From positions 1-64,000 of IMG/VR virus record IMGVR_UViG_3300008267_000005: a stretch of DNA of 64,000 nucleotides; one strand, written 5' to 3'. Shown here one piece after another: positions 17,621 through 61,614 of the stretch (its first letter is position 1; each line of letters begins with the position of its first letter). A program made the translations under genes and the position numbers. The DNA is from a virus. A model generated the notes under the pieces. That model saw only the letters and a program-made list of their open reading frames with translations, was not told where the DNA came from and ran no database searches.

Positions 17621-17646
17621 AAAAGGGTCTTAGGACCCTTTTTTTG
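17621..17646 (+). terminator. intrinsic terminator
   Basis: AAAAGGGTC TTAG GACCC followed by seven or more T, after the holin-like gene. Confidence 0.85.
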
Positions 17647-17702
17647 TGGTTTTCAATTTTGAAACCATTTTTGATACATCGATAAAATCAGAAAAGCAAA
17701 AA

Positions 17703-18134
17703 ATGAAAGGAATAATTAAAACCTCAAAAGGTGATATGGTCGTAGAATTCTACGAGGCTGATGCACCTGGAACTGTTAAAAACTTTGTTGATCTTTCTAA
17801 AAAGGGATTTTACAATGGACTGAATTTTCATCGAGTGATCCCCAATTTCGTAATTCAAGGTGGGTGCCCACAAGGAACTGGAGCCGGTGGTCCTGGCTAC
17901 TCAATTCCTTGCGAACTTGATGGAGGAAATCAATATCATGATAAAGGCGTTTTGTCCATGGCACACGCAGGTAGAAATACCGGAGGGTCCCAATTTTTTA
18001 TTTGTCACAATAGACAAAACACTCAACACTTAGATAGAAACCACACATGTTTTGGTAAAGTGATTGAGGGATTGAATGTTATTGATCAAGTTCAGCAGGG
18101 AGACAAAATCGTTTCGATTGATATCCTTGATTAA
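17703..18134 (+). CDS. cyclophilin-type peptidyl-prolyl isomerase
   Basis: The product is 143 aa, start ATG 17703 (the frame extends to a GTG at 17646 inside the terminator T-run). Catalyses cis-trans isomerisation of X-Pro bonds. Hallmarks: FHRVIPNFVIQGG near 40-52 with the catalytic Arg, GPGYSIPCE near 60, MAHAGRNTGGSQFFI near 82, and HTCFGKVIEGLNVID near 112. It has the short form typical of bacterial cytoplasmic cyclophilins, without a signal peptide. It probably assists folding of a phage protein; uncommon in phages and likely of host origin. Confidence 0.93.
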   Translation: MKGIIKTSKGDMVVEFYEADAPGTVKNFVDLSKKGFYNGLNFHRVIPNFVIQGGCPQGTGAGGPGYSIPCELDGGNQYHDKGVLSMAHAGRNTGGSQFFICHNRQNTQHLDRNHTCFGKVIEGLNVIDQVQQGDKIVSIDILD

Positions 18135-27573: not shown

Positions 27574-28164
27574 TCAGAAATAGTTTTTCTCGAAGAACAA
27601 GACATCAAGTTTGCTGTTGATATCAATCAATTCAAGGGCATTCAAAAGATCTGCATATTCTGCTACCTCACCATTTTGAATATCAACGTATTTTTGAATA
27701 AAGTTATAGGTTGCCGGGTGAACACTATGGAAGTTTTTCTGATCCTCCGAATATTTCATCAAAAGGTTATATTCCAACTCGTAAGCTTTGTTGATGATGT
27801 CAACTAAACTAGCAAATTCTTGTTTTGTTGCTACACCTGGTATTGCAGGAATAGTGTTCCATTGAACTAAATATTCTTGTAATCCTTTGCCATGCTCTAA
27901 TTCACCTTCTGCTTCTTTATCGAAAAAAGCACCCGCTTTGTTGTAGTTTTTTTCGTTACACCAGTTAGCTGCATTTCTGTAGAAATAATAAGCAATGTAT
28001 TCATCACCAATTCTAGAATTCAAAGTTTCTTGAACTTCTTCTGGAAGGCAGTTTGGCTTAACGATTCCATTCATTCCCATTGGGACTTCTTGGTGCTGAT
28101 CTGTAAGATCTTTAATAGCTCCAAAATCTAGTTTATCCATTTTTTTAATTGTGAATTTGTCCAT
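27574..28164 (-). CDS. ferritin-like iron-storage protein
   Basis: The product is 196 aa. The four-helix ferritin layout and the diiron ligands can all be seen: Glu55 in RIGDEYIAYYFY, Glu88 and His91 in EGELEHG (ExxH), Glu129 or Glu131 in AYELEY, and Gln163/Glu166 in QNGE (QxxE, as in FtnA-type ferritins). Residues 1-40 are an extra N-terminal arm. It would oxidise Fe(II) and store Fe(III) in a 24-subunit shell. An iron-storage enzyme is unusual in a phage; it may protect DNA or the cell from Fenton chemistry during infection. GATATATA lies 18 nt upstream. Confidence 0.88.
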   Translation of the reverse strand: MDKFTIKKMDKLDFGAIKDLTDQHQEVPMGMNGIVKPNCLPEEVQETLNSRIGDEYIAYYFYRNAANWCNEKNYNKAGAFFDKEAEGELEHGKGLQEYLVQWNTIPAIPGVATKQEFASLVDIINKAYELEYNLLMKYSEDQKNFHSVHPATYNFIQKYVDIQNGEVAEYADLLNALELIDINSKLDVLFFEKNYF

Positions 28165-38971: not shown

Positions 38972-39400
38972 ATGAAGAATAGTATTTACATTAAAAACAG
39001 GAAAGCATCTTTCGATTATTTTTTTCTTGAGGAGTATACAGCAGGAATTCAATTGTTAGGCTCAGAGGTAAAGTCTATAATATCAGGTAAGGTGTCTATG
39101 GTAGATGCTTTTTGCTATATTGACAAAAATGAAATTTTTCTTAAAGGCTTAAATGTTTCTCCTTTAGGTGATTTTTCTCATGATTCTTTACGGGTTAAAA
39201 AATTACTCCTTAAAAAAAGTGAGATTGCAAAATTGCAAAGAGGATTAAGTACAGGAATTACAATCGTTCCTTTCTTGATATTTACCAATGAAAGAGGTAA
39301 GATCAAAATAAAAATTGCTCTTTCTAGGGGTAAGAAAAACTATGACAAAAGAGCTTCTATTAAGGAAAAAGAATTATCTAGGGAATTAAGAAAATCATAG
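38972..39400 (+). CDS. smpB: SsrA-binding protein SmpB
   Basis: The product is 142 aa, close to the usual length. SmpB binds tmRNA and delivers it to stalled ribosomes in trans-translation. Conserved blocks are all present: KNRKASFDYFFLEEYTAGIQ at about 9-28, LGSEVKSIISGKVSMVDAF, a central NVSPLGDFSHDSLRVKKLLL (H-D-x-x-R-x-x-KLLL), then ITIVPFLIFTNERGKIKIKI and the basic C-terminal tail GKKNYDKRASIKEKE that reads the mRNA channel. It appears intact. No tmRNA gene is recognisable in the window, so it may act with the host tmRNA. Very unusual in a phage. Confidence 0.93.
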   Translation: MKNSIYIKNRKASFDYFFLEEYTAGIQLLGSEVKSIISGKVSMVDAFCYIDKNEIFLKGLNVSPLGDFSHDSLRVKKLLLKKSEIAKLQRGLSTGITIVPFLIFTNERGKIKIKIALSRGKKNYDKRASIKEKELSRELRKS

Positions 39401-45093: not shown

Positions 45094-45927
45094 ATGATTC
45101 TTAAACTCGGCTCTAAAGGTCCTGATGTGGAAAGATTACAGAAAGCTCTAGGAATTGGAGCAGACGGAAATTTCGGTCCAGGCACAGAACAATCGCTAAA
45201 ACAATGGCAAGAAAAACACGGTCTCACTGCTGACGGAATAGCAGGCCCAGCAACATTGGATCGGATGGGAGTTACTGCTTCTTTTCCTGATGCCCCTTCA
45301 GCATCACCAGTTACCATTCCATCAAGCTCTTTCAAGCTGGATAAACTAAAAGGTCATATTCCGGATGCAGTGATTGCACAGATTCCAGACACTGCTGCAA
45401 AATTTGGAATTACAAACACTTTAAGACTTGCACACTTCTTAGCTCAGTGTGGTCATGAATCAGGAGGTTTCAAAGCTGTCTCTGAGAATCTAAACTATTC
45501 AGCTGATGGCCTTAAAAAGATTTTTCCTAAATACTTTCCTGGAAACTTAAACGAATCATATTCTAGACAACCCGAAAAAATTGCCAACAAGGTTTATTCT
45601 TCTAGAATGGGAAATGGAGATGAAGCTTCTGGTGATGGCTATAAATTCAGAGGTAGAGGTTATATCCAACTAACAGGAAAATCTAATTACTCAGCTTTCG
45701 ATAAAATGGTTGATGAAGATATCTTAGCCAATCCAGATTTAGTTGCAACTAAATATCCATTGATGTCTGCTGCATTTTTCTTCAACAATAACGGACTTTG
45801 GAGCATATGTGATAAAGGTGCAGATGATGCAACTGTCACAGCAGTAACAAAGAGAGTAAACGGAGGAACTATTGGATTACCTGATCGTATCAAACATTTC
45901 AAAGAATACTATAGCCTCTTGGCCTAA
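45094..45927 (+). CDS. endolysin: peptidoglycan-binding domain plus GH19
   Basis: The product is 277 aa. Residues 1-58 are a PG_binding_1 domain (LKLGSKGPDVERLQKALG, DGNFGPGTEQSLKQWQ, DGIAGPATLDRMG). Linker at 60-80. Residues 85-275 are a GH19 (chitinase-like lysozyme) domain with catalytic Glu122 in QCGHESGGF, and FRGRGYIQLTGKSNYS near 188-203. It would hydrolyse peptidoglycan glycan strands during lysis. No signal peptide or tag, so release depends on a holin (candidates at 17439 and 15393). Terminator follows. Confidence 0.93.
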   Translation: MILKLGSKGPDVERLQKALGIGADGNFGPGTEQSLKQWQEKHGLTADGIAGPATLDRMGVTASFPDAPSASPVTIPSSSFKLDKLKGHIPDAVIAQIPDTAAKFGITNTLRLAHFLAQCGHESGGFKAVSENLNYSADGLKKIFPKYFPGNLNESYSRQPEKIANKVYSSRMGNGDEASGDGYKFRGRGYIQLTGKSNYSAFDKMVDEDILANPDLVATKYPLMSAAFFFNNNGLWSICDKGADDATVTAVTKRVNGGTIGLPDRIKHFKEYYSLLA

Positions 45928-47564: not shown

Positions 47565-48209
47565 ATGGAAAAAAATTTACAAGAAACAGAAATTGTAGTA
47601 GTTCTAGATAGATCAGGATCTATGAGAGAAATCGGAGAATCCACAGTTAATGGGTTTAATAAATTCTTGGATGAGCAAAAGAATTCCGAGGGAAAGGCTT
47701 ACATAACCTTAGTTCAATTTGACGATCGATATGAGATTAACTATAAGAGTATTCCAGTTACCGAAGCTGAGAATTTAATTCTAGGTGAAAATTTTAAACC
47801 TCGCGGTAGAACTGCTCTTTTGGATGCAATAGGAAAAACCATAGAGGAATTAAAAACTGACAGAGACGTTGTTTTTGTAATTATTACGGATGGTGAAGAA
47901 AATGCAAGTAGAGAGTATAAGAGAGAAGCCATCATGAAGATGATAGAAACCACAACAGAAGAGGGTTGGAACTTCTTATTCCTTGCTGCAAATCAAGATG
48001 CTATTAAAACTGGGGGATCTATTGGAATCAAAGGTGGTAATTCTATAACTTATGCTTCTACAGATTCCGGTGTTGATAATGTGTTTACTTCCTTCTCTAA
48101 TAATGTTTCCCAGTATAGAAAATCTAAGCTCGATTATAAAGGGGAAGATTTTTCTAAAATATCAAAGGACCTTGATTTCAAAGATGACCAAAGAAAGAAA
48201 TCTAATTAA
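47565..48209 (+). CDS. von Willebrand factor A domain protein
   Basis: The product is 214 aa. A complete MIDAS metal site is visible: VVVLDRSGSMRE with Asp15, Ser17 and Ser19, the Thr in PRGRTALLDAIG near 87, and the Asp in FVIITDGEENAS near 110. The last about 45 residues are a charged helical tail. VWA domains mediate protein binding and often pair with MoxR-type AAA+ ATPases, but none is encoded nearby. It stands alone and overlaps the convergent mgsA by 4 nt. Confidence 0.9.
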   Translation: MEKNLQETEIVVVLDRSGSMREIGESTVNGFNKFLDEQKNSEGKAYITLVQFDDRYEINYKSIPVTEAENLILGENFKPRGRTALLDAIGKTIEELKTDRDVVFVIITDGEENASREYKREAIMKMIETTTEEGWNFLFLAANQDAIKTGGSIGIKGGNSITYASTDSGVDNVFTSFSNNVSQYRKSKLDYKGEDFSKISKDLDFKDDQRKKSN

Positions 48210-48598
48210 GTGTTTGTAGTAAACCAGTCAATTACATATTTAGCTGTCATATAATTTGTAGCTAATGGAACTGAATGAACATCACAGATCCTCATAAGCA
48301 TCTGTATATCCGGTTCGTGTGGATGTGAGTTTAACGGATCCCGGAAGAAAATAACAGCTTTTACCTTTCCCTCAGCCACCATAGATCCTATTTGTGCGTC
48401 TCCTCCATTAGGTCCGCTTAGCATGGAGTGTACTTTCTGTATTCCTGCAAATTTTAAAAATTTACCGGTTGTACCTGTAGCATATATTTCCACATCGTTC
48501 CGATTAAAAAAATCTAAACGCTTGGTTACAAAGCTTACCATATCTGCTTTTTTACCATCATGTGCTATTAAAGCTATATTTAAAACTTCCTTATTCAT
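48206..48598 (-). CDS. mgsA: methylglyoxal synthase
   Basis: Converts dihydroxyacetone phosphate to methylglyoxal and phosphate, a bypass of lower glycolysis. The product is 130 aa, slightly shorter than the E. coli enzyme. Conserved residues are present: IALIAHDGKK with His13, SGPNGGDAQIG with catalytic Asp67, FFRDPLNSHPHEPD with Asp87, His94 and Asp97, and the ATGTTGKFL loop near 40-48. It appears functional. It overlaps the upstream gene by 8 nt on the same strand. A metabolic gene of this kind in a phage is unusual: it would release phosphate and make a toxic aldehyde. Confidence 0.93.
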   Translation of the reverse strand: MNKEVLNIALIAHDGKKADMVSFVTKRLDFFNRNDVEIYATGTTGKFLKFAGIQKVHSMLSGPNGGDAQIGSMVAEGKVKAVIFFRDPLNSHPHEPDIQMLMRICDVHSVPLATNYMTAKYVIDWFTTNT

Positions 48599-49136
48599 GT
48601 CTTTTCTTGCTCGCTACGAGCTCTAAATATTCATTTAAGGTCATTTCATTGTCTTCATGCCTAACGATGAAATTATGTACACCATTGTCAATATTTTCAA
48701 ATGTTGTTAGGTCTATTATCTCTACCCCACCTAAAATATACTTAAGCTTCTCTATAATTACTTTTCTGACCTCTTCTGTATTAAATTCAAATCCATATTC
48801 ACTTATCATATTTGTAATCCTTTCTCTTATAAGCATTGCTTCTTTAGAAGACGGAAGCAAAGAATTAAAAGTATTGGAAGGATATAGGTGCATCGCTAAT
48901 GATTCAACCAGATACATTTTCATCATTAGTATAGGACGGAAAGTCTCCTCGTCGATCCATGATTCAAAAGAGAAATCTACTATTTTATCCTTGTGCTTTT
49001 CTAGATAATCCTCTATTTCTTTTAGGCACTCTTCTGGATTATCCTGAAGATCCTCTAAATTAAAAGAGAAAAACTTCTTAAGTGTAGGTGTGTTAGTCTG
49101 GAGATTCCAGATTTTTTCAAAAATTAGATCTTTCAT
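48591..49136 (-). CDS. hypothetical protein, 181 aa
   Basis: Acidic and largely helical (EDLQDNPEECLKEIEDYLEK, SKEAMLIRERITNMISEYGF). Not recognised. It is translationally coupled to mgsA (8-nt overlap) and 8 bp downstream of the large glycosyl/methyltransferase gene, so the three leftward genes 52774-48206 may form one unit. Confidence 0.75.
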   Translation of the reverse strand: MKDLIFEKIWNLQTNTPTLKKFFSFNLEDLQDNPEECLKEIEDYLEKHKDKIVDFSFESWIDEETFRPILMMKMYLVESLAMHLYPSNTFNSLLPSSKEAMLIRERITNMISEYGFEFNTEEVRKVIIEKLKYILGGVEIIDLTTFENIDNGVHNFIVRHEDNEMTLNEYLELVASKKRHE

Positions 49137-49144
49137 TTATTTTG

Positions 49145-52100
49145 TTATGTAGTTGGAATTTCTCTTCCCCATTTTTTATTTAACTTCTCCTTGTATTCTT
49201 TATATCTTCCCCACTGAGAACCCAATTGAAAATATGTAGATCCTCCATGTAGAATCCATTTTTTCTTATTTTCTTTCTCATCTGGGTAATTATAGGGTTC
49301 CGTGTAATCACACAATATAGTCTTTCCATTTTCTCCTAATTGTACACAAAAATCTTCAACGTATAAATGAAAATCGTCAAATGTATTTTCGTCGAAATTG
49401 AGATCTAAGTTTTCTGTATCAATAACTATAAAACATGAATCCGCTGTTAAAATATCTCTCGACTCTTTTGAATCTGAAGAAATTATTTGATTGCCATTAG
49501 ATCCTGCCATCCCGAAAAATTTAGAATCTGGGTTTAATTTTACGGTTTCTTTTATTTGATCTAAAAGATCATTAGAAAATGCTACATCCTCGTGGCACAA
49601 AATAAGCCATTTTGTTTTACATTCACTTATTATTTTATTGTAATTATATGCTGGATTTTTTGAGTCGTCCGTGGATATAGATTGATATTTTCCATCTATT
49701 TTTTCTAGAGAAGGACCTAGGTATTTTTCAAAAGCCTCTTTATTGTGAGAAATCCATCCAAATGTAAAATCCAAATTGGAGGATTTATATTTTTTATCTC
49801 CAATATGTACTATAAACATTATATCATCGTACCTATTTTTTTGATTTCTAAGATCTATAATCTCTATAGATTCCCTGTATTCCTCAGGTAAGCATTCTTT
49901 TAATATTGCAGTATGATTTATATCTTGAATATCCTCGATAATCATAACACTATTTTCTTTTGCTAGTGATATGTAATTTTTGATAAAAAACTTTTGACTC
50001 TCTAATGTATGAGGTCCATCATCTATCAAAATATCAAATCCTTCGGGATTTTCTTCTTTGATTTTTTCTAGTGATTCCTTAGTGTAAGCATCAAAAATGT
50101 GGAATTTATATCTTTCCTGATTTAATCTGTCCAATATATTTTTTCCTATCTGATCTTTAATGTCTGCCATTACTAGATTTGAATCCTCCAAATACTCGTG
50201 CCATAAAAGGGATGATCCCCCGTATTGAACTCCAACCTCCAGTATTGATGATTTTTTTCCAATGTATTTAGATAGGATCCTTTCGTAAGTTTCTATGTAG
50301 CTATGAAGTGTTCCTTTGTCTGTTCCGCCCTCGCTATCAAATCCGTTTATTCTATTAAAGTCTAGTATTCCAGATAAACTTTTTTTTGATTTCAGAAATT
50401 TCTTTCTTACTCCATTAGCATAACTGTTACTTATGTTGTTGTTTTCAGTGAGTGGATCTATATTATTTTTTTTCTCAAATTCATCCGCTTTTTCTAAAGG
50501 AACACAGATATGATCTGACGGATAAGAATGTTCCATCAGATAGATTTCGTAATTCAGGCCTCTTATTTTTTCAAATATGTTAGCTGAAGAAAAACCAAAT
50601 TTAGAAAGCTGGAATTCTTCTATCTCTATTATTATGATAGGCCGATTTTTTTCTATAGTTTTCGTAGCTCCCTCTATGACAAAATTTTCGTACCCCTGAA
50701 CATCAATCTTAATTAAATCTACTTTCTCTATGTTTATAGAATCAAGAGTTATAATTTCTATATTTTCCCCGTTTAATCCCACACCCAGGTCACCTATATT
50801 TAGTCCATTTTCGTGATAATTTATAGGAGAAAGATTGGATTGTGTTATTATGCTACCTAATCCTTTTTTATATTGAATTATGTTTTCAAATTTATTTTTC
50901 CTGATACTTTCTTTCTGGAGAGAATAAATTAAAGATTGAGGCTCAAAACTGTGGACTGTTTTACATAAGCTAGATGCTATCAATGAATGCCATCCGTAGT
51001 TACTTCCTATGTCGACAAAAACGGATTCTTTATCTAGGTAATTTCTTAGAAAAGAAACTATATGAGGCTCCCAGGACTCGCCCTTATTTATTCCTCTTCC
51101 GATAGCATCATTGCTTAATGTTAGAATAGAAAACCCCTCTATTTTAGTTTCAAGAACTTTATCTCCGATTCCTTCCAACTGTAATAGTGTCTTAATAGAA
51201 TCTGTAATTTCACGGGATCTATTATATTGGTGGATTACCGATGGTATTTTTTTATTGACGTGGATCTTTAATTCATTCACCTCTATTGATTCAGGTGCTA
51301 CTCCACAGGTAATACCTATTGTTGCGAAAAAATCCCCGTTTTTCTTGATGCTCGGATTTACAAAATCCTCTATAGAATTATAGCAGATATAGTTGTGTAT
51401 TCCTTGATCCATCATGTCATAAAAGAAGTCTTTCCTCTCATTATACATTCTGATCATTTCTGAGGAGCTTTTTTTACAATACTTAAGAATATTCCCATAT
51501 GATCCTACAATAGTTCCACAGCAAACTATTTTCTCATTTTTAATTTTTTCTAAGTATTCTTCACCGAAGCATTGTATTATCCATCTAGAATTGAATTTGT
51601 TCGAACCTATTGATTCTGATTCATCCTCCTCCGCAAAAAATATGAATTCACCATCTAATCCATCAAATGGGTCGGATTGAAAATATACATCAGAAACATC
51701 CGATAGAAGAACATTTTTATATGTATTTTTCTCTTTTAAAAAATCTAAGAATTTGATGAACCTGTAATTATTAGGTTGCGTTTCAAGTATTTGCCCTGAT
51801 TCAAATGAGAGTATTTCTACTGAATTCTTTTTTAAGTAATCCAATTTATCCTGCGATGCTGATTCTTCAATAATCAGATATACATCGTCATTAAGATTTT
51901 TACTTCTAAATGAATCTACAAAAATTCTTATATCTTCTAATGAAAGATTTATGGCGGCTCCTAATACTAGGTTATTTTTGTTTTTTATTTTATTCCCATA
52001 TTTTTCCTCGTTTTTTGAAAGAATTCCCCAGTTTTTAGGAAGATATGTATTTTCTAAAGGATCTATTTTTTGGAATGTTCTCCATTCGTCAAAAAGATCT

Positions 52101-52774
52101 AATCCCTCTTTCACCTTTCTTATTACCTCATCCTTTATCTTAAATCTTTCCTGGTTTAATTCCTGGTGAGCAGTACTATTGATTTTGTTAATTATAATTT
52201 CAGGACCTCCAAAATAAGATAAATGCCATCCTCCTCTTTCCCACCATTGACAATTAAAATCTAGCCTGCACTCATCTGGGGTTCTTCCTTTTAAAGTCTC
52301 CCAGTCTACTATTTTTGCATGATACCATTTTTCTGGATATACTAATTTGTTGTAAATAGAAGCCCAATAATGATCCATCTCTAGCTTAAATAATCCTTTC
52401 ATTGGATAACTAGTTTTTATGTAGTTTAGTGTGCTCGAATCTGGGATTTCGTCGAGATCACTAATTACAACTATATCATCATTTGATAATCCTAACGAGT
52501 ATAAAGTAGGCATAATTGAATTCCTTTGATATTTTTCTCTTCCCCAAGTATCTAAGTGCAAAGGAAAATTTACTTTAAGATGGATAATTTTATCAATCCA
52601 TTTTTCGTATCTCCACTTATTCTCTTCAAAGAAAAATATTTTATTTTTTCCTGGGTGTGTTGTGTTTGCCTCTACCAATATAAATTGATCCACAACATCA
52701 TAAATTTCAGCAAGTCTAAGCTCCAGAAGTTCGAATTCATTATTAAATGTAAAACAGTCTATTATTTTTTTCAT
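49145..52774 (-). CDS. 1209-aa multidomain glycosyltransferase/methyltransferase
   Basis: Five modules can be traced. (1) About 1-265: GT17-like (MKKIIDCFTFNNEFELLELR, VISDLDEIPD, GGWHLSYFGG). (2) About 268-545: a second GT-A-like domain (VLLSDVSDVYFQSDPFDG, CCGTIVGS). (3) About 555-790: FkbM-type SAM methyltransferase (VFVDIGSNYGWHSL, VDLIKIDVQGYENFVIEGA). (4) About 810-1000: second class I methyltransferase (ILEVGVQYGGSSLLW, DILIDDGPHTLES, VMIIEDIQD). (5) About 1010-1209: GT2/DUF4422-like domain (KTKWLILCHEDVAFS). It is probably a polymerising or capping enzyme for a surface or virion glycan. Codons are A/T-rich even for this genome. Confidence 0.88.
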   Translation of the reverse strand: MKKIIDCFTFNNEFELLELRLAEIYDVVDQFILVEANTTHPGKNKIFFFEENKWRYEKWIDKIIHLKVNFPLHLDTWGREKYQRNSIMPTLYSLGLSNDDIVVISDLDEIPDSSTLNYIKTSYPMKGLFKLEMDHYWASIYNKLVYPEKWYHAKIVDWETLKGRTPDECRLDFNCQWWERGGWHLSYFGGPEIIINKINSTAHQELNQERFKIKDEVIRKVKEGLDLFDEWRTFQKIDPLENTYLPKNWGILSKNEEKYGNKIKNKNNLVLGAAINLSLEDIRIFVDSFRSKNLNDDVYLIIEESASQDKLDYLKKNSVEILSFESGQILETQPNNYRFIKFLDFLKEKNTYKNVLLSDVSDVYFQSDPFDGLDGEFIFFAEEDESESIGSNKFNSRWIIQCFGEEYLEKIKNEKIVCCGTIVGSYGNILKYCKKSSSEMIRMYNERKDFFYDMMDQGIHNYICYNSIEDFVNPSIKKNGDFFATIGITCGVAPESIEVNELKIHVNKKIPSVIHQYNRSREITDSIKTLLQLEGIGDKVLETKIEGFSILTLSNDAIGRGINKGESWEPHIVSFLRNYLDKESVFVDIGSNYGWHSLIASSLCKTVHSFEPQSLIYSLQKESIRKNKFENIIQYKKGLGSIITQSNLSPINYHENGLNIGDLGVGLNGENIEIITLDSINIEKVDLIKIDVQGYENFVIEGATKTIEKNRPIIIIEIEEFQLSKFGFSSANIFEKIRGLNYEIYLMEHSYPSDHICVPLEKADEFEKKNNIDPLTENNNISNSYANGVRKKFLKSKKSLSGILDFNRINGFDSEGGTDKGTLHSYIETYERILSKYIGKKSSILEVGVQYGGSSLLWHEYLEDSNLVMADIKDQIGKNILDRLNQERYKFHIFDAYTKESLEKIKEENPEGFDILIDDGPHTLESQKFFIKNYISLAKENSVMIIEDIQDINHTAILKECLPEEYRESIEIIDLRNQKNRYDDIMFIVHIGDKKYKSSNLDFTFGWISHNKEAFEKYLGPSLEKIDGKYQSISTDDSKNPAYNYNKIISECKTKWLILCHEDVAFSNDLLDQIKETVKLNPDSKFFGMAGSNGNQIISSDSKESRDILTADSCFIVIDTENLDLNFDENTFDDFHLYVEDFCVQLGENGKTILCDYTEPYNYPDEKENKKKWILHGGSTYFQLGSQWGRYKEYKEKLNKKWGREIPTT

Positions 52775-56210: not shown

Positions 56211-57395
56211 ATGATGAAAGAGTTTACCAACTTAGTCAATTCTAAAATTTCAGGAGCTGAGCTATTACTGGTTGTGAAACGTGGGTCGCAAGTTTACGGA
56301 ACAGCTCTTCCAACTTCTGATGTTGACTATGCTGGAATTTATATTCAAAGCCTTGATGATATACTTGGGTATGGGTATAAAGACCAAATTAACGATGACA
56401 AGAATGACACTGTCTTTTATGAGATTAAGAGATTTTTAGAACTTGCATCTACTAACAATCCAACTATTTTAGAGCTTCTAAACACGCCCGAAGACTGTAT
56501 TCTATACAAACATCCAGCAATGGATGAAATACTCCGTTATAAGGACAAATTTGTGACTAAGAAATGTTCTAATTCTTTTGCTGGTTATGCAATTCAGCAA
56601 ATCAAGAAGGCTAAGGGACAGGACAAGAAACAAAACTGGGACAAAGACAAAGTCTCACGCAAGGACGTTTTAGATTTTTGTTATGTAATTGAAGATGAAA
56701 AGTCTATACCATGGAAGCAATGGAACAATGGAAGATATGACGAGAAATTCATTGGTGCAGTAAACGTACCAAATGCAAGAGACATATATGCTCTTTACTA
56801 TGACACCGACGCTCATTTATGTTTTTCAGAACAAGTTCCGACTAAAACTCGTGAAATATATTTAGAAACCAGAAAAGAATCTGGTCTACCATTGGGATTC
56901 AGCTACAAAGGTCTTGTAAAAACTGGACATGGGGCAAGTGTTGCAGAATCAAATCAATTACGTCTTTCCTCGATACCAAATGGACAAACCCCTATTTGTA
57001 ACATCATTTACAACAAGGACGGTTACATTATGCACTGTAAGGATTTCAATGAATATCAAGTGTGGCTTGAAAAAAGGAATTTGCAAAGATGGGTAGATGT
57101 TGAATCTCATGGCCAAAAAATTGATGGTAAAAACATGATGCACTGTCGCAGACTTCTTGAAATGGCTAAAGAGATTGCAGAGGGAAAAGGAGTTTTAGTT
57201 AGAAGAAAAAATGCACATGATTTATTAGCGATAAGAAGAGGAGAAATTGATCTTGAGAGTTTGATAAGCTTTGCAGAAAAAGACATTATTGAAATTGATA
57301 GATTATTTAAAGAATCGTCTTTACCAGAAAGTGTTGCGCCCGATTTCGTGAAAGATCTACTCTTACAAGTTAGAAAAAGATTCTATTTTGGATAA
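56211..57395 (+). CDS. RlaP-type nucleotidyltransferase
   Basis: The product is 394 aa. KRGSQVYGTALPTSDVDYAG near 23-42 is the G-S-x-x-Y-G...D-x-D active site of the polymerase-beta superfamily branch RlaP (PF10127), proteins linked to RNA repair gene sets. EIKRFLELASTNNPTILELL near 72 and the His/Arg-rich segments MMHCRRLLEMAKEIAEG and RRKNAHDLLAIRRGEID belong to the same family. Length is complete. No RNA ligase or Pnkp is adjacent. In a phage it might counter host tRNA cleavage; inference. It has its own host-type promoter. Confidence 0.88.
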   Translation: MMKEFTNLVNSKISGAELLLVVKRGSQVYGTALPTSDVDYAGIYIQSLDDILGYGYKDQINDDKNDTVFYEIKRFLELASTNNPTILELLNTPEDCILYKHPAMDEILRYKDKFVTKKCSNSFAGYAIQQIKKAKGQDKKQNWDKDKVSRKDVLDFCYVIEDEKSIPWKQWNNGRYDEKFIGAVNVPNARDIYALYYDTDAHLCFSEQVPTKTREIYLETRKESGLPLGFSYKGLVKTGHGASVAESNQLRLSSIPNGQTPICNIIYNKDGYIMHCKDFNEYQVWLEKRNLQRWVDVESHGQKIDGKNMMHCRRLLEMAKEIAEGKGVLVRRKNAHDLLAIRRGEIDLESLISFAEKDIIEIDRLFKESSLPESVAPDFVKDLLLQVRKRFYFG

Positions 57396-59331: not shown

Positions 59332-61614
59332 TTATTTAGCCCATTTGAAAGTTTCTGTTCTATCCATATATTGAGCTTTGATAATGTAAATACCACTTGG
59401 TAATTCACTATATCTGTTAATGTCCAATAAAGCTCCAGTAATTGTGTAGATCTCTACAGCAATTGGATAATCGTCTTCAATATAAACACCTTCAGGATCG
59501 TCAAGAAGAGGATAATTACCGATGATATCTTCTCCACTTGTTGCAAGGCGATTGAAAACAAGATCAACCCTATTGTTAGTTGGATCAGTGTCCCCCATTG
59601 TTCCGTTCACACTTATCACATCCAATCTGAAAGTGTTCGAAGTTCCTACTGGAACTGCACATCTTGTTGGGTGACAAAGATTCACACTTATATAAGTGTT
59701 GTTTGCAGGAAGCAAAGTTGATTGTCCAGGAAGCAAAGTGCCTGTCCAAGTTGAATTTGTTACACATCCATAAGCTGCTGTGCAATCAATCCATCTTCTT
59801 GTGTAATTGATCTGGTTGATTGTTGTAGTTCCTGTGTTAACCGCTCTCCATTGTGTGTTTACTATCTGGAGAGAAGTCGTCCAGGGATTTGCTACTGGTT
59901 GAACAAGTTCCACACGAAGGTCTGTTCCCGTCATAGATGGATTTGCAACATTGAAAGCTTTGAAACTTGTGTTATCCGAAGTTATAGTTTCTTCTGCTGC
60001 ATTGTCATAGTTTATGGTTACGAATATGTAACGTGTACCTGCCATCCCATCAACTGTATAGGAGAAAGATCTAGTTACAGAATTATTTCCTCCACCTAAG
60101 CTCACACTATCGACACCAATTATAATGTCATCTGCATCACCCAATGTAGAGTTTGCTGAATATCTATATTGTACGCCAACAAATGTGGCAAAGGTAGTTG
60201 ATACATTTACTTCTTCAGTAACTATAGCGTTGTAGTTTACTAAAATTGTCTCTCCTAAGTTTACACTAGCTGGAGTTACTATTACATTGTTAACAGTGTA
60301 GTTAGAAACTATTGTTGGTGGAGGTGGAGGTGGACCACCAGGTGTGGGTGTTGCAATAACTGCATTTTTAAGATTAATCCTTCCATAACCTAATTCGTTA
60401 CTTCTAGTACTGTAAGGCCAAGTTGGATTATTAGTGTAAGTGTAACCACCAACCTTTTCACAAGTTGAAGATAGAATTTGCAAAATCTCATCATCAGTTA
60501 ACTCCCAGTTTTTATAAGCGATAACTGCTGAAGCTGCAGCTGTTATTGGACAACTGAAAGATGTCCCGCTAACGCTCTTGTAGTCAGTTGGATCATATCC
60601 TTCGGCACCAAGTCTGTCAGTGGTTCTAATTGCTGAACCGGGTCCAGAAATGTCACAGATTTGACCATAATTCGAAAAACTAGCTCTTGTATCTGATGAG
60701 GTTGTTGCACCAACCCCCCAAACTCCATTGTAGTTAGCTGGATATTGAGCTGCAGTTCCTGAATAACCATTACCGGAAGAAGCAAATACCATCATTCCTT
60801 TGCCTCCTCTTCCGTTTGCCCTTGCATTCAAAAAAGCATTTTCAAGAGTTGCAGAGTATGTGCTACCACCATAAGACATCGCAATAGCAACACAATTGGG
60901 ATTTGCCATTGCTGCATTAACTGCTGCAACTTGAATTCCGGTAGAAGTTCCAAAAGTTCCTCCTGCATAAACCTGCGACATAATGTTGACAGGCATAACC
61001 TTAACAAAGTTGTTACCAACACTGCTAACACCAATTCCGTTATTGGTTCTTGCTGCTATTGTACCAGAGCAAGCAGTACCATGTTTATCTTCTGAGTTAA
61101 CATAGGGAACTGAGTTAGTACCATTCACAGCATTAAACGGGCTGTCGACATTTCCAACAAATTCGGGAATTGTCATATCAAGTCCACCATCAAACATAGC
61201 AACAGAAACCCATTGGTTGTCTGTTGGAAGTAAATCCCAAGCTTCATCTGCATCAATGTCTTTGTCATTTGCTTGTCTCAAATGCCAACAAGAGGCAAAT
61301 TCAGTATCATTGGGAATATAATCGAATTTGATTTCTTCCATTCTATCTCTTTCGATTATACCAAATAAACCACTATCCTCACAGAGTGCTGTGAGAAGAT
61401 CAAAATCATTTGTTCTTACAACATAGATGTCAAGCTGATCTAAATAGCTCACAATCTCTACATTGTAAAAATCCAAAAATTCGTCCACCTGATGCTTCCT
61501 TGCATCAAGCTTCGGTGTAAGTAACACTTGTCTACCTATATCATCTATCAAACTTTGTCCGAGTGACAGAAAAGAAAGTAGTACAAATGAAACAACTGCT
61601 AATACATTTTTCAT
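59332..61614 (-). CDS. secreted subtilisin-like protease with T9SS type A sorting domain
   Basis: The product is 760 aa. Signal peptide at 1-20 (ends LSLGQ), a propeptide at about 21-105, then an S8 peptidase domain (about 130-425) with a complete triad: Asp142 (SVAMFDGG), His178 (DKHGTACSGT) and Ser352 (SGTSFSCP), plus oxyanion Asn282 (SSGNG). A Pro-rich linker (about 437-448) leads to two CARDB/Ig-like domains (about 455-700). The last 60 residues (IAVEIYTITGALLDINRYSE, LPSGIYIIKA, ETFKWAK) form a T9SS type A sorting domain. Predicted surface-attached or released protease made by the infected cell. Confidence 0.93.
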   Translation of the reverse strand: MKNVLAVVSFVLLSFLSLGQSLIDDIGRQVLLTPKLDARKHQVDEFLDFYNVEIVSYLDQLDIYVVRTNDFDLLTALCEDSGLFGIIERDRMEEIKFDYIPNDTEFASCWHLRQANDKDIDADEAWDLLPTDNQWVSVAMFDGGLDMTIPEFVGNVDSPFNAVNGTNSVPYVNSEDKHGTACSGTIAARTNNGIGVSSVGNNFVKVMPVNIMSQVYAGGTFGTSTGIQVAAVNAAMANPNCVAIAMSYGGSTYSATLENAFLNARANGRGGKGMMVFASSGNGYSGTAAQYPANYNGVWGVGATTSSDTRASFSNYGQICDISGPGSAIRTTDRLGAEGYDPTDYKSVSGTSFSCPITAAASAVIAYKNWELTDDEILQILSSTCEKVGGYTYTNNPTWPYSTRSNELGYGRINLKNAVIATPTPGGPPPPPPTIVSNYTVNNVIVTPASVNLGETILVNYNAIVTEEVNVSTTFATFVGVQYRYSANSTLGDADDIIIGVDSVSLGGGNNSVTRSFSYTVDGMAGTRYIFVTINYDNAAEETITSDNTSFKAFNVANPSMTGTDLRVELVQPVANPWTTSLQIVNTQWRAVNTGTTTINQINYTRRWIDCTAAYGCVTNSTWTGTLLPGQSTLLPANNTYISVNLCHPTRCAVPVGTSNTFRLDVISVNGTMGDTDPTNNRVDLVFNRLATSGEDIIGNYPLLDDPEGVYIEDDYPIAVEIYTITGALLDINRYSELPSGIYIIKAQYMDRTETFKWAK

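Follow-up and report, generated by a model that had tools for sequence, protein, structure and literature searches.

A predicted methylglyoxal synthase encoded by a large T4-like phage that probably infects Bacteroidota

We analyzed a stretch of 64,000 nucleotides (hereafter the window), the opening part of a virus record 174,942 bases long. We observed that it encodes a protein of 130 aa which, by family, fold and residues, is a genuine methylglyoxal synthase (MgsA) with predicted activity. Enzymes of this family convert the sugar phosphate dihydroxyacetone phosphate (DHAP) to methylglyoxal, a toxic aldehyde, and phosphate. Our preferred explanation, which we hold tentatively and would place a little below an even chance, is that large T4-like phages acquired mgsA from Bacteroidota and have kept it as an auxiliary metabolic gene (AMG) that drains DHAP, frees phosphate and bypasses lower glycolysis. 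If the enzyme is active, a direct branch point of glycolysis, from DHAP to methylglyoxal and phosphate, joins the steps controlled by phages, in uncultured phages of Bacteroidota. Infection would then be tied to the phosphate economy and to the release of a reactive aldehyde, both of which are measurable.

The gene and its surroundings in the window are as follows.

45094..45927, plus strand: endolysin with peptidoglycan-binding and GH19-like domains, phrog_181 (5e-69), part of the phage context
47565..48209, plus strand: convergent gene for a VWA-domain protein assigned to phage family phrog_7371 (4.5e-64), overlapping mgsA by 4 bases at its 3' end
48206..48598, minus strand: mgsA, methylglyoxal synthase, 130 aa, ATG start, the end of a three-gene minus-strand unit
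48591..49136, minus strand: middle gene of the unit, directly upstream of mgsA, encoding 181 aa without a known family and overlapping mgsA by 8 bases
49145..52774, minus strand: first gene of the unit, 1209 aa, with GT family 17, FkbM methyltransferase, Methyltransf_24 and, at the C-terminus, a region resembling glycosyltransferases

Identity of the gene product

The protein was matched by the Pfam MGS family (PF02142, 3.5e-17) and scored above the cut-offs of two equivalog models, NCBIfam NF003559 (160.9 bits, cut-off 84) and TIGR00160 (153.9 bits, cut-off 146.9). Methylglyoxal synthases of the PDB matched it as well (best 2.8e-37). Since Pfam, NCBIfam and PDB all returned matches, a chance resemblance of this ORF to MgsA is excluded. 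No family in PHROGs matched the protein. Its AlphaFold2 model (mean pLDDT 90.1) agreed with Thermus thermophilus MgsA 1wo8 at TM 0.92 and rmsd 1.1 Å. When the model was compared with the PDB by Foldseek, ranks 1-26 were all MgsA chains; carbamoyl-phosphate synthetase (CPS) came next at TM about 0.66, and both CPS and PurH domains scored well below the MgsA structures.

The initial annotation had claimed that the ORF encodes an MgsA whose active site appears intact, naming Asp67, Asp87, His94 and Asp97 as conserved. In our alignment all four were there, opposite E. coli Asp71, Asp91, His98 and Asp101, and His19, Asp20, Lys23, Thr45, Thr47, Thr48, Ser65 and Gly66 (E. coli numbering) were kept too. 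Together with the equivalog scores and fold matches, this bears the claim out. All 12 catalytic or phosphate-binding residues that we checked were invariant in 52 of 52 distinct viral sequences. For this comparison we used an E. coli MgsA sequence and a list of active-site positions which we take to be correct; the matches to solved structures support both.

The bacterial enzymes of Thermus (1wo8/2xw6), Bacillus subtilis (6f2c) and E. coli (1b93) share the fold, the catalytic residues and the equivalog-level match with the window copy, whereas the latter is phage-encoded and carries Arg27, Phe31 and Tyr116. The C-terminal tail of E. coli MgsA is missing from the window protein and from Bacteroidota MgsA alike. 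We therefore rejected a shortened C-terminus as a phage escape from phosphate control, as chromosomal copies of Bacteroidota are equally short.

Purifying selection

We compared the window mgsA with that of L001, a viral contig of 190 kb, and observed 70 differences at 80 synonymous sites, which is saturation, at a dN of 0.05. For other viral mgsA pairs dN/dS was 0.01-0.10 (correctly framed pairs with measurable dS; the misframed pair L038/L035 was left out). These values indicate that mgsA is kept as a functional protein in viruses. Between the window and L001 the two neighbouring genes reached dN of 0.26 and 0.21, which leaves mgsA as the most conserved gene of the unit.

These data also bear on whether the protein has lost its synthase activity and taken another role, for example that of a ligand-sensing MGS-fold domain as in CPS. 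Such a loss would fit with the virus-typical substitutions Arg27, Phe31 and Tyr116 and with the occurrence of the MGS fold as a domain of CPS, though CPS matches the model far more weakly than MgsA does. With all catalytic residues invariant and the sequence under strong purifying selection, we regard it as very improbable.

The carrying phage

The same record encodes a T4-type Gp23 major capsid protein, a portal protein, a large terminase, UvsX and an SbcC-like nuclease, as well as a replicative helicase, a sigma factor and thymidylate synthase. Therefore we assign it to a T4-like phage. Its capsid protein is nearest to those of an uncultured phage and of Lak phages of Prevotella, and further matches include phages of Tenacibaculum, Chryseobacterium and Flavobacterium. 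Because of these matches the host is probably a member of Bacteroidota. The capsid proteins of these T4-like phages are up to 43% identical to that of the window record; tblastn against the annotated phage collection returned no mgsA from any of them.

That the gene is encoded by a phage, as the initial annotation had proposed, is thus well supported by the hallmark genes of the record and by the adjoining endolysin and phage VWA family. Bacterial genes flanking mgsA, which it had named as part of the evidence that would speak against its proposal, were not found; the flanks consist of phage genes.

Gene order around mgsA

In L001 a GT17 gene, a 181-aa gene and mgsA lie in matching order and the 8-base overlap is kept. 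The 181-aa protein is 65% identical to its L001 counterpart. The L001 GT17 counterpart of the 1209-aa gene encodes 534 aa at the equivalent place, and shorter separate ORFs of L001 match parts of the 1209-aa protein. One scan of viral sequences found no relative of the 181-aa protein beyond L001, so it was rejected as a general partner of mgsA. A conserved neighbourhood as a clue to function was rejected as well, because the neighbours of mgsA differ between phage lineages. In eight mgsA clusters belonging to one phage group, thymidylate synthase lies within 2.5 kb of mgsA; glycosyltransferase or FkbM genes lie near mgsA in the lineages of the window and of L021-L023.

Distribution among viruses

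The initial annotation had asked for a survey of MgsA in viral contigs and did not regard the enzyme as typical of phages. A single scan of IMG/VR returned 150 viral stretches that encode MgsA relatives; the best 80 of the 150 were retained and 52 distinct viral sequences were examined. Such relatives turn out to be common among contigs of uncultured viruses, and earlier AMG listings exist, so the window copy is not an isolated case. Among records with a capsid protein related to that of the window phage, MgsA was present in 5 of 45, including 4 of the 5 records longer than 200 kb (two of those with MgsA, G090 and G091, score equal and may be near copies). Therefore mgsA is, judging by these records, an accessory gene, its frequency being blurred by fragments.

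The annotated phage collection gave 22 mgsA matches by tblastn, all below 60% identity. We inspected four of them (OR848172, MT835478, MT835608 and MT835555, our L256-L259). They are unverified scaffolds with flanks that resemble bacterial chromosome, namely the clusters dapB-mgsA-cca-birA or min-rodA-mgsA by ORF reading. No verified phage isolate with mgsA was found in this collection, with 4 of the 22 matches inspected.

Scaffolds of this kind favour the view that bacterial DNA entered the viral record through misassembly or travels in it as passive cargo. For the window this is already contradicted and scarcely credible: mgsA is flanked by phage genes, with Gp23, portal and terminase in the same record, the three-gene unit recurs in the independent contig L001, and Gp23 exceeded the cut-off in 26 of 46 mgsA virus records, many of which are fragments. 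On the hallmark genes and on the recurrence of the unit we rejected contamination of the record. For AMG surveys these results are a caution, as the four inspected scaffolds of the phage collection look chromosomal while the mgsA genes of large T4-like metagenomic viruses look real.

The idea of a phage mgsA is not new, since at least two AMG surveys have reported it. In the excerpted text of a study of Lake Baikal viromes, mgsA is named as an AMG on viral scaffolds, one of them of 120 kb, of the Caulobacter phage Cr30 virotype and recruiting as much as 8.8% of the reads of one sample (PMC8066274). An excerpt on a deep-sea brine pool lists it as a viral AMG (PMC11252502). In these excerpts mgsA is one item of an AMG list. 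What our analysis newly adds is the virus-rich clade and the residues diagnostic of it, the constraint by purifying selection, the gene order shared as a three-gene unit, and the lack of the clearing genes searched for. We found no description of the virus-rich clade, the constraint or the absence of clearing enzymes from phages in the literature searched, the scope of which excluded most subscription papers and all preprints.

Phylogeny and signature residues

The tree was built from 52 viral and 70 genome MgsA sequences (127 columns). All 52 viral sequences fell, along with six genome rows, into one group (SH-aLRT 93) nested within Bacteroidota MgsA, and the mgsA of T4-like phages would accordingly have its source in this phylum under our preferred explanation. 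One of the six rows, L095, encodes a protein identical to that of viral L073 on an equally long contig, and for this reason we treated the two as one contig. For the remaining five rows, the flanking ORFs read like bacterial genes (RidA-, NAD kinase-, BamA- and UppS-like, or YqgF- and deformylase-like). These flanks suggest that the gene either returned from phages to bacteria or came from a donor lineage near these copies. In the free tree the five chromosomal copies from Bacteroidota fall within the viral clade; constraining the tree to strict viral monophyly was not rejected (p-AU 0.134). Sequences were sampled by similarity to that of the window, and mgsA may have been acquired independently elsewhere.

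Arg27, Phe31 and Tyr116 were present in 49 of 49 viral sequences compared. Among 64 bacterial sequences Phe31 occurred in 13 and Tyr116 in one, and Arg27 was outside the common residues listed; the three are rare or absent in most Bacteroidota copies sampled. A bolder proposal is that these residues mark a phage-adapted MgsA subfamily shared by large T4-like phages of Bacteroidota, that these phages produce methylglyoxal to steer host metabolism deliberately while carrying none of the clearing enzymes that we looked for, and that the phage version later returned to the chromosome of one or more Bacteroidota lineages. Taken as a whole we consider it rather unlikely.

Possible role during infection

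As is expected of an AMG, mgsA lies between viral genes, is homologous to a host metabolic gene and is under selection in viruses. E. coli directs carbon into methylglyoxal once phosphate is depleted and GAP dehydrogenase becomes limited, or when carbon uptake is excessive. The methylglyoxal bypass can stand in for glycolysis, and in a tpi mutant grown on glycerol it can carry nearly all carbon flux (PMC10521649). According to our preferred explanation, during infection the phage MgsA would turn DHAP into methylglyoxal and inorganic phosphate in a single irreversible step. Phosphate trapped in triose phosphates would be released, carbon would skirt the phosphate-dependent lower glycolysis, and host enzymes would convert methylglyoxal to lactate and pyruvate. 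The gain would be an improved phosphate supply during bulk DNA synthesis. Here we infer the activity of MgsA in the infected cell, the direction of the benefit and the link to phosphate. The explanation is supported by the equivalog and structure matches, the invariant residues, the constraint, the single clade, the proximity of thymidylate synthase in one phage group and the use of the bypass by E. coli.

Several observations speak against it. In the window unit mgsA is accompanied by a glycosyltransferase/methyltransferase gene and a gene of unknown product rather than by phosphate or nucleotide genes. PstS-type phosphate-binding protein (PF12849) was found in 0 of 50 mgsA virus records, therefore there is no independent sign of phosphate specialism in these phages; as many of the records are fragments, gene absences here and below are only indicative. 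In addition, MgsA was present in 98 of 198 Bacteroidota genomes. With about half of Bacteroidota having their own enzyme, the gain over it is not obvious, and in many hosts the phage copy would raise the dosage or evade control by the host instead of bringing a new reaction.

The lack of a PstS-type phosphate-uptake gene alongside mgsA would suit a re-routing of carbon with no role of phosphate. DHAP would then be drained to halt synthesis of phospholipid and glycerol-3-phosphate and to avert sugar-phosphate stress when host growth stops, with pyruvate as a by-product. It draws on the same enzyme evidence (equivalog match, residues and fold) and on the ability of the bypass to carry glycolytic flux in E. 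coli (PMC10521649). We consider this possible but on balance unlikely.

We found no protein of the glyoxalase superfamily (PF00903) in the window's own record or in 46 viral records, and no DJ-1 protein (PF01965) in 50 mgsA virus records; glyoxalase and DJ-1 controls were positive in most bacteria. Clearing of methylglyoxal would therefore fall to the host. The initial annotation had suggested that the freed phosphate could help nucleotide synthesis and that the aldehyde might harm the host or trigger stress; the absence of the two families bears on these ideas indirectly. The same absence is consistent with methylglyoxal as a weapon that harms host proteins, DNA or ion balance, and so aids takeover or, after lysis, hurts neighbouring cells or competing phages. 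However, the DNA and proteins of the phage would be attacked too, infected hosts probably retain their own glyoxalases, and the search covered two families of methylglyoxal-clearing enzymes, others being aldo-keto reductases and GloB-type hydrolases. A weapon therefore seems to us distinctly improbable.

Other genes of the phage

The window also encodes SmpB, the partner of tmRNA (PF01668, 1.4e-44; 38972-39400, plus strand). ARAGORN detected no tmRNA, only four tRNAs, in the window and the rest of the record. In L062 a relative of SmpB is encoded no more than 1 kb from mgsA. The same contig has, near mgsA, a relative (53% identity) of a ferritin-like protein of the window (PF00210, 2.8e-19; 27574-28164, minus strand). 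The window further encodes an RlaP-type RNA-repair nucleotidyltransferase (PF10127, 2.4e-17; 56211-57395, plus strand), a cyclophilin-type peptidyl-prolyl isomerase (PF00160, 1.6e-41; 17646-18134, plus strand) and a subtilase-family protease of 760 aa with a signal-like N-terminus (PF00082, 2.7e-28; 59332-61614, minus strand).
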